A program made the translations under genes and the position numbers. Shown here in pieces: positions 3,184-5,031 of a DNA stretch of 35,197 nucleotides (within the stretch, counting starts at the first letter, position 1; each line of letters begins with the position of its first letter). Origin of the DNA: Acidobacteriota bacterium (GTDB lineage Bacteria; Acidobacteriota; Terriglobia; Terriglobales; SCQP01); the NCBI GenBank assembly GCA_021826505.1, contig JAKAZV010000013.1, positions 1-35,197 of the forward strand. Reading direction: 5' to 3'. The notes beneath the pieces were generated by a model. That model saw only the letters and a program-made list of their open reading frames with translations. It did no database searches and was not told the DNA's origin.

Positions 3184-5031
3184 ATGATTCGCTCTGGCGG
3201 GCCGGACCGATTGCATGCTGGCCCGCTGAATCCGGTCGAGATGGAATCGGCTCATGGCGCGGCCATGGATTCAGATCTTCAATCAATTCAGGAAGCGCGT
3301 GATCTGGCCGAGCGCGCCTGGCGCGGCTGGCAATCCCTGCGCGACTTTTCCCAGGCCCAGACCGATGCAATTGTGGACGCCATGGCCGCCGCCGCGCAGC
3401 AGCATGCCCGGCGGCTCGCCGAGCTGGCGGTGCGCGAAACCGGCTACGGCAAGCCGGAAGATAAACTTAAAAAAAATCTCTTTGCCGCCCAGCGGGTGCA
3501 TGCCGCCCTCCGCGGCCTCCGGACCTGCGGCATCGTCGGCGAAGACCGCGAGGCCGGCATCGTCGAGATCGCGGTTCCGGTGGGGGTGGTGGCCGCGATT
3601 CTGCCCTCCACCAACCCCACCAGCACCGCCATTTATAAAACCCTGATCGCGCTCAAGGCCCGCAACAGCATCGTCATCAGCCCCCACCCCAGCGCCCGGC
3701 GCTGCATCTGCGAAACGGTAAGCGTGCTGGAAGAGGCGGCGCGCGCGGCCGGCGCGCCCGAAGGCGCCATCAACTGCTGCCAGCATCCCTCGCTGTCCGG
3801 CACCCAGGAGCTCATGCGTCATCGCCGCACCGCGGTGATCCTGGCCACCGGCGGCAGCGGCATCGTCAAAGCGGCCTATAGCTCGGGCAAACCGGCCTAT
3901 GGCGTCGGTCCGGGCAATGTCCCGGTTTTTATTGACCGCTCGGCCGATCTGGCCAAGGCCGTGGCCGATGTGGTGCGCGGCAAAACCTTCGACTGGGGCA
4001 CCATCTGTTCCAGCGAGCAGGCCATCGTGGCCGAGCTTGACTTAAAACCCCGCATCGTGGAAGAGCTGCGTAAACTCCATGCGCATTTTCTCAGCCCCGC
4101 GGAAGCCGCCCAACTCGCCCGCACCCTGATTCATCCCGGACAATTCATCGTCAACCCCAAATGCGTGGGCAAATCCCCCCAGGTTCTGGGCGAGCTGGCC
4201 GGCATCGCGGTTCCGGCCGAAGCCCGGCTGCTGGTGGCTGAACTCGATGGCATCGGCAGGGCTCATCCGCTCTCCGCCGAAAAGTTGTCTCCCGTGCTGG
4301 CGCTCATGTTTGTCGCCGATCGCAATGCCGGCTTCGAGGCCTGTTCGAACCTGTTGCACTTCGGCGGCCTCGGCCATACCTGCGTCATTCACGCCCAGGA
4401 TGACGCCGTAATCCGCGAATACGGCCTGCGCATGCCGGCCTATCGCGTGGTCGTCAACAGCCCGTCTCCCTGGGGCTCGATTGGCCTTTCCACCCATCTG
4501 TTCCCGGCCATGACGCTGGGCTGCGGCGCGGTGGGCGGCAATATTACCTCCGACAACATCGGCCCCCGGCATTTGTTGAATCTGAAGCGTATTGCCTGGG
4601 AGAATCGTTCGCCGGAACTGGATCCAGTTCCGGGACATCCGGAGCGCTCTTCCAGCCCCGCTCCCGCCGCGACTGCCCCGCCACCGGTTTCCCTCGCGGC
4701 CACGCCTCCCGATCCCTCCCGCATTCGCGGCCTGGTGGAACGCATCCTCACCGAAAAAGGGCTCAACCCGGCGGTGAATTCTCAACCCACGCATGCACCG
4801 GCGCCGGCCGCCCCGGTTCCCCCACCGGCAGAAAATCAGGCGTCTCCGCTCGATTTCGTCTGTGAAGCCGATGTGCGTCAGGCTATGCGGCAAAATCACA
4901 AACTGCGGATCGGCCCTAAAACCCTGATCACCCCGGCGGCGCGCGATCTGGGTGAGCAGGAAAAAATATTTGAACCTGTTCCGCGGGAAGTCGGCAGCCA
5001 GGATAAAAAAAAGAACGATGCGGAATCGTAA
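3184..5031 (+). CDS. BMC-associated CoA-acylating aldehyde dehydrogenase (PduP/EutE-like) with extended Pro/Ala-rich C-terminal tail; start could be 3241 or 3265
   Basis: ALDH core with PVGVVAAILPSTNPTSTAIYKTLIALKARN, YGVGPGNVPVFIDRSAD, catalytic-Cys motif FDWGTICSSEQ, and NLLHFGGLGHTCVIHAQD. Lies directly downstream of BMC-H. The tail carries DPSRIRGLVERILTEKGL and DFVCEADVRQAMRQNHKLRIGPKTLITPAARDLGEQEKIF. Confidence 0.92.
   Translation: MIRSGGPDRLHAGPLNPVEMESAHGAAMDSDLQSIQEARDLAERAWRGWQSLRDFSQAQTDAIVDAMAAAAQQHARRLAELAVRETGYGKPEDKLKKNLFAAQRVHAALRGLRTCGIVGEDREAGIVEIAVPVGVVAAILPSTNPTSTAIYKTLIALKARNSIVISPHPSARRCICETVSVLEEAARAAGAPEGAINCCQHPSLSGTQELMRHRRTAVILATGGSGIVKAAYSSGKPAYGVGPGNVPVFIDRSADLAKAVADVVRGKTFDWGTICSSEQAIVAELDLKPRIVEELRKLHAHFLSPAEAAQLARTLIHPGQFIVNPKCVGKSPQVLGELAGIAVPAEARLLVAELDGIGRAHPLSAEKLSPVLALMFVADRNAGFEACSNLLHFGGLGHTCVIHAQDDAVIREYGLRMPAYRVVVNSPSPWGSIGLSTHLFPAMTLGCGAVGGNITSDNIGPRHLLNLKRIAWENRSPELDPVPGHPERSSSPAPAATAPPPVSLAATPPDPSRIRGLVERILTEKGLNPAVNSQPTHAPAPAAPVPPPAENQASPLDFVCEADVRQAMRQNHKLRIGPKTLITPAARDLGEQEKIFEPVPREVGSQDKKKNDAES

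Follow-up and report, generated by a model that had tools for sequence, protein, structure and literature searches.

The CoA-acylating aldehyde dehydrogenase (AldDh) described here carries, in its long C-terminal tail, an encapsulation-peptide-like helix followed by a conserved terminal module. In 19 related species that form a clade, the enzyme is cut off from that module by an in-frame TGA, yet the module stays under purifying selection beyond the stop. From the anatomy of the tail, its conservation, a profile match of the module to EutQ and EutT and the conserved stop with its selected extension, we infer a role for each part of the tail and stop-codon readthrough as the route to the extension. 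On balance, we favor a model in which the AldDh of this ACI-type microcompartment would bear a two-part targeting tail, helix plus docking module, with the stop clade splitting anchored from unanchored forms.

A shell protein gene and an extended aldehyde dehydrogenase gene

The window, by which we mean the whole stretch of 35,197 nucleotides that was analyzed, corresponds to positions 1 to 35,197 (forward strand) of contig JAKAZV010000013.1 from Acidobacteriota bacterium (Terriglobales; SCQP01), assembly GCA_021826505.1. In it, the AldDh gene lies directly downstream of a gene for a BMC-H shell protein (Table 1), which scores 132.9 bits against the EutM model NF012018 (cut-off, 133). The AldDh reading frame is open from an ATG at 3184, with the ATG at 3265 as the likely start. 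Its translation contains the active-site motif GTICSSEQ, its nearest solved structure is PDB 5j78 (query residues 3 to 450, E = 2e-148), and it scores 561.9 bits against TIGR02518, acetaldehyde dehydrogenase (acetylating), which is under the equivalog cut-off of 620.1. Of the orthologous loci, 46 extend far enough upstream to be checked, and in every one of these BMC-H immediately precedes AldDh.

Directly upstream of the pair in the window is an alpha-L-rhamnosidase with GH78-type domains (229-2769), a neighbor that would suit a microcompartment acting on a deoxysugar. Two Bryobacteraceae-like AldDh loci come from records filed under other names, one as Arcobacter sp. (L101) and one as an Acidimicrobiia bacterium (L074). 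In the AldDh tree, the former has a Bryobacteraceae sequence as its sister, and both are probably mis-binned contigs.

TABLE 1 Features of the BMC-H/AldDh pair and of the AldDh tail, in window coordinates
Feature	Position	Strand	Basis
BMC-H shell protein (hexamer tile), EutM-like, 97 aa	2875-3168	+	Pfam PF00936, E = 5.7e-29
CoA-acylating aldehyde dehydrogenase (AldDh), extended C-terminal tail	3265-5031	+	Aldedh, PF00171
First Pro/Ala linker, disordered	4615-4710	+	Translation; pLDDT about 50-60; 24% gaps (13 orthologues)
Encapsulation-peptide-like helix DPSRIRGLVERILTEKGL, 18 residues (helix proper, 4714-4755)	4711-4764	+	Translation, AlphaFold2, spacing pattern
Second Pro/Ala linker, disordered	4765-4848	+	Translation; pLDDT about 46-52 over most
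Terminal module LDFVCEADVRQAMRQNHKLRIGPKTLITPAARDLGEQEKIFEP, 43 residues, candidate shell-docking	4849-4977	+	AlphaFold2, alignment, profile
Short charged C-terminal end	4978-5028	+	Window protein only; not conserved between orthologues (13-sequence alignment)

A putative encapsulation peptide inside the tail

Translated on the forward strand, positions 4600 to 4900 read SSPAPAATAPPPVSLAATPP, then the helix segment, then the second Pro/Ala linker and DFVCEADVRQAMRQNH. The first-pass annotation had taken this segment for an internal, C-terminally placed encapsulation peptide, flanked by two Pro/Ala linkers, helical and docking on the adjacent BMC-H. Much of this holds. Translation confirms the segment and both linkers, and AlphaFold2, given the 13-sequence tail alignment, predicts SRIRGLVERILTEK to be helical (pLDDT about 84) and the rest of the surrounding linker to be disordered. 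In the same close-family alignment, the helix segment has 3% gaps, compared with 24% in the preceding linker; with its low pLDDT and these gaps, the tail up to the peptide is a flexible and poorly conserved linker. Encapsulation peptides are helices of 15 to 20 residues with one hydrophobic face, usually at the N or C terminus of the cargo; this segment lies in the C-terminal region but is internal, as had been claimed, in that about 88 further residues follow it, including a folded and conserved module.

The hydrophobic spacing of the segment, I..LV..IL, is that of the N-terminal peptide of E. coli EutE, DIEQVVKAVLLKM (I..VV..VL), and of 64 orthologous tails, 63 show the general pattern PHI..PHI-PHI..PHI-PHI within their linker portion, where 7.9 would be expected from shuffled residues. 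The proposed helical-wheel check was of no help. The hydrophobic moment of the helix is no higher than in shuffled versions (P = 0.6), and the EutE peptide likewise fails to exceed its shuffled versions (P = 0.23), so that the argument is uninformative for either one. The predicted helix, the spacing and the constant BMC-H neighbor, with helix prediction and conservation beside the shell gene being two checks that the first-pass annotation had set for itself, nonetheless leave the reading of the helix as an encapsulation peptide well supported, with docking on BMC-H left as a candidate role. Two roles of encapsulation peptides have been published: cargo-cargo condensation (PMC12339742), and binding between shell tiles, with Pdu peptides occupying a groove between PduA hexamers (PMC11157265).

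Several other features of the linkers vary among orthologues. Many Bryobacterales tails (L061 to L064, L079 to L081, L090, and others) bear a pair of encapsulation-like helices, ..AVERYLA.RG.. and ..VVDRFL..R... Disordered tails also show, repeatedly and on either side of a helix, a Cys-x-Cys motif such as CACQH or SCGCS (L007 to L010, L012 to L014, L061 to L064, and others); the window protein and its genus sister do not have it. In L011 and L015, the AldDh linker from helix to module is built of imperfect copies of QPSRLSEP, a Pro/Ser repeat that is expanding.

The terminal module is the most conserved part of the tail

The first-pass annotation had the tail end as plain linker. This part of its account does not stand, and with it the encapsulation-peptide reading, well supported as to the helix, proves incomplete: it had overlooked a module resembling the H1/H2 region of EutQ. 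The module is common to all 13 close orthologues, with the consensus FVCEADVR.A....KI.IGPKT.ITPAARDL. Its mean pairwise identity is 0.57 with zero gaps, against 0.38 for the helix, and thus the module, not the helix, is the most conserved part of the tail. AlphaFold2 predicts a beta-alpha-beta-alpha-beta mini-domain with pLDDT of 87 to 96.

Standard searches returned little for this region. The tail (4690-5028) had no match in NCBIfam; by sequence, its sole match in the PDB was a spurious one to Pro/Ala, and Foldseek found nothing better than E = 0.6 in the PDB for its AlphaFold2 model. For the module itself, there was no match in Pfam or NCBIfam and no convincing one among PDB structures by Foldseek. 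We then built a profile from 64 modules and searched it against the E. coli eut operon together with a 49-kb unrelated E. coli region as a control (497 six-frame ORFs in all). EutT ranked first (residues 3 to 38, 11.7 bits) and EutQ second (residues 9 to 39, 11.1 bits), the same order as in a search of the operon by itself, with the best control ORF at 4.5 bits; the EutQ/EutT match is short (about 36 residues) and, at about 11 bits, weak in absolute terms.

The EutQ match spans H1/H2 (residues 9 to 41). In Salmonella EutQ, those residues bind the shell, and once H1/H2 are deleted, EutQ still accompanies the cargo but is no longer on the shell; cargo encapsulation peptides are bound by residues 62 to 99, H3/H4 (PMC12487888). 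H1 and H2 are described there as helices (PMC12487888), whereas the module is modeled as beta-alpha-beta-alpha-beta, which counts against the match. In the alignment and the AlphaFold2 model, the AldDh tail has the helix and the module, and we did not find the peptide-capturing H3/H4 of EutQ in it; we therefore do not class the tail as a full EutQ adaptor. Because the homology to EutQ and EutT is distant and short, the function of the module is carried over by inference. With that in mind, the module is a better candidate for shell docking than the helix is, and the tail would combine, within one chain, a peptide for cargo with a module for shell docking. The division of labor between the two could also be reversed.

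One can also envision that the helix alone acts, as a conventional encapsulation peptide docking on the adjacent BMC-H, with the remaining tail as linker. The prediction of the helix, its conservation beside BMC-H and the binding of Pdu peptides in the PduA groove all speak for this. However, it leaves out the module, whose conservation exceeds that of the helix and which folds in the model, resembles EutQ and EutT, and stays under selection even past a stop codon; we consider this reading unlikely. Even less can be said for the module as a regulatory or catalytic appendage of AldDh with no docking role, for example in cofactor or metal handling with the Cys-x-Cys motif: EutT, a cobalamin adenosyltransferase enzyme, bears the same module, and Cys-x-Cys is present in many tails, but a long disordered tail separates the module from the enzyme, Cys-x-Cys lies outside the module and is absent from the window protein and its genus sister, and EutT and EutQ have little in common except being microcompartment enzymes, all of which makes such an appendage quite improbable. 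That EutT and EutQ are otherwise so dissimilar points instead to a common localization role for the module, in keeping with the two-part targeting tail that we favor.

A stop codon between enzyme and module in one clade

A scan of the genome collection for the module gave 50 loci, among which 13 have an AldDh frame closed by a TGA soon after a second helix, with the module continuing onward in the same frame. Class- and family-wide surveys with DNA patterns, together with fetched regions, brought the stop clade to 19 species (L058, L059, L065, L070 to L073, L078, L085, L086, L088, L091, L098, L138, L185 to L187, L189, and L190), after three unrelated proteins among the pattern matches (L108, L125, and L133) had been dropped. 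In the AldDh tree, the 19 group as a single clade (support, 100/99), with one origin of the stop. They are related Bryobacterales species, of another family than that of the window but of the same class; in the window species, enzyme and module are permanently fused, with no inner stop. Most of the genomes are metagenome assemblies, and the stop agrees across independent assemblies of the 19 species.

The sequence TGACTG lies between enzyme and module in all 19 species, and the context GG-N-T.....-TGA-CTG-N-C is invariant at the named positions. The terminal stops of the same 19 genes are mixed (8 TGA, 7 TAA, and 4 TAG), in contrast to the inner TGA in 19 of 19 (Fisher P = 1.3e-4, for sequences that are related and hence not independent). 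Leucine is encoded by CTG in 61% of cases in the stop-clade genes, which gives a naive probability of 8e-5 for CTG in every species. Past the stop, the module has a pN/pS of 0.10 to 0.24 between close pairs, and of 0.29 when unsaturated pairs are taken together; this is no worse than the 0.38 of the module in the clade without a stop. No further in-frame stop precedes the module end in any of the 19 species. When the TGA is read as tryptophan, AlphaFold2 places two isolated helices upstream of the stop in the 19 tails and folds the module downstream of it (pLDDT, 84 to 90). Given that the module is in frame and under purifying selection past the stop, the extension must be translated, as far as can be judged from these comparisons.

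One genus-mate of two stop-clade species has no stop, its tail running directly into the module (L124/L137, genome G329). L137 is at a contig edge, where only the last 135 residues are seen, and in these the GGYS and Cys-x-Cys stretches are missing. Its lineage possibly lost the stop.

How the extension might be made

The conserved UGA-CUG and the selected extension suggest stop-codon readthrough. Also in favor of readthrough are the C that follows UGA, a post-stop linker of Pro/Ala like that of the uninterrupted tails, and the existence of the fused protein in orthologues outside the clade. Two other accounts were rejected. The stop is not a dead gene end, given purifying selection on a module that is always in frame beyond it, and UGA is not a genome-wide sense codon, since it ends the same gene in 8 of the 19 species.

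The module might instead be made as a separate small protein, by termination at the stop and reinitiation at the CTG. This is conceivable because the two are contiguous, and the CTG directly follows TGA in every species of the clade. However, CTG is a very poor start codon in bacteria, and a single base change would turn it into ATG, GTG, or TTG, which is seen in none of the 19. Between stop and module no ATG is conserved, enzyme and module are made fused in the clade that lacks the stop, and L137 is uninterrupted. Reinitiation is thus a doubtful alternative. Decoding of the UGA as selenocysteine seems improbable to us. SelB is above cut-off in 12 of the 13 stop-clade genomes examined, and several stop-clade genomes have strong tRNA-Sec matches, but these (above 66 bits) are found in only 4 of the 13, which are drafts, and also in genomes without the stop, and the same genes use UGA as a terminal stop as well. 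Nor did the 42 nucleotides after the UGA show SECIS-like RNA stability (mean z, +0.45 against dinucleotide shuffles).

A model for partial anchoring, and its precedents

We imagine that the helix would gather AldDh with other peptide-bearing cargo, and it may touch the shell too, while the module, reaching out on the flexible second linker, would dock AldDh on the shell. In the stop clade, most AldDh subunits would end after the helices, and the minority made by readthrough would bear the shell anchor. We give an even chance to the further proposal that readthrough sets the ratio of enzyme-to-shell tethering, so that in these 19 species one gene would supply cargo with a free end together with a smaller share anchored to the shell.

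The closest parallel for the tail is the N-terminal region of Salmonella EutQ, a protein of the ethanolamine organelle, which, like the AldDh tail, has an H1/H2-like sequence beside a flexible linker (Yang et al. 2025, PMC12487888). EutQ and the proposed AldDh tail share the same logic of bridging shell and cargo, with the difference that EutQ captures the peptides of other enzymes through its own H3/H4 (PMC12487888), whereas AldDh would have peptide and docking module on one chain. For the paired forms, a parallel exists in alpha-carboxysomes, in which frameshifting yields short and full-length isoforms of CsoS2 (CsoS2A and CsoS2B) and isolated mini-shells took in only full-length CsoS2B, with its shell-binding C terminus (PMC10484944). 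CsoS2 is a scaffold made by frameshifting; in the stop clade, the protein would be the enzyme itself and the device an in-frame UGA, as deduced from gene sequences. LDHB and MDH1 offer another parallel: their UGA CUA readthrough isoforms go to peroxisomes (PMC4207609), and, as is proposed for AldDh, these metabolic dehydrogenases acquire an extension past UGA CU that targets an organelle. They differ in being read by a eukaryotic ribosome and sent to a lipid-bounded organelle, while the AldDh case is bacterial, with UGA CUG, a protein-shelled compartment, and putative readthrough.

If true, the stop clade would be to metabolosomes what CsoS2A/B is to carboxysomes, and would give bacteria an equivalent of the readthrough that sends LDHB to peroxisomes. 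To our knowledge, conserved functional readthrough of chromosomal genes has rarely been reported in bacteria. A literature search whose coverage left out most subscription journals found no paper joining microcompartments and stop-codon readthrough. For the assembly of a catabolic microcompartment, it matters what ties cargo enzymes to the shell and what number of them is tied. A peptide and a EutQ-like module on one chain would divide two activities between parts that lend themselves to separate tests, and the module would be a new candidate targeting tag for engineered shells. The stop clade can be seen as an experiment set up by nature: provided that the anchored isoform arises by readthrough, altering a single codon would fix the proportion of enzyme with and without an anchor.

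A probable ACI-type setting

According to the survey by Sutter et al. (2021, PMC8217296), the ACI type of Acidobacteria has a class II aldolase with a C-terminal peptide, a BMC-P triplet, and BMC-H, and its AldDh is consistently on a satellite locus. The window genome has two BMC-H and three BMC-P genes. One BMC-H gene is clustered with BMC-P on contig C73, AldDh is on C23, and the class II aldolases are on other contigs, so that in this draft genome shell, aldolase, and AldDh are spread over three contigs. In relatives, AldDh and the shell cluster are likewise on separate contigs or lie about 72 kb apart, and the class II aldolase stands beside the shell genes with a C-terminal peptide, ..VTREELxxLVExA..KRRW (L043, L044, L046, L210, and L212).

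Assignment of the window AldDh to an ACI-type microcompartment fits these data. The likeness extends to the BMC-P triplet, BMC-H, the AldDh satellite locus, and the acidobacterial host, and to the aldolase peptide in relatives. The published type is mainly from subdivisions 4 and 6, unlike the window's class and the relatives here, which are named Bryobacterales and Terriglobia; the terminal module and the stop-codon clade are absent from the passages of that account consulted here (PMC8217296).

The survey describes a C-terminal encapsulation peptide as the rule in the type I AldDh class, and the type I enzyme (in a group dominated by EUT2) shares the TIGR02518-like class and a C-terminal peptide helix with the window AldDh (PMC8217296). 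With this and the ACI-like composition, the helix is of a kind already known. What differs from the type I enzyme is that the window helix is followed by a conserved folded module and that many Bryobacterales tails have two helices.

The aldolase ends show a further pattern. The window-genome aldolase on C82 ends in ..GQLLSYAKRRW, without the VTREEL helix; indeed, the VTREEL..LVE helix is missing and KRRW kept in the aldolases of both the window genome and genome G005. The KRRW end is invariant in the class II aldolases L209 (G000:C82), L207, L210, L212, L217, L218, and L222.
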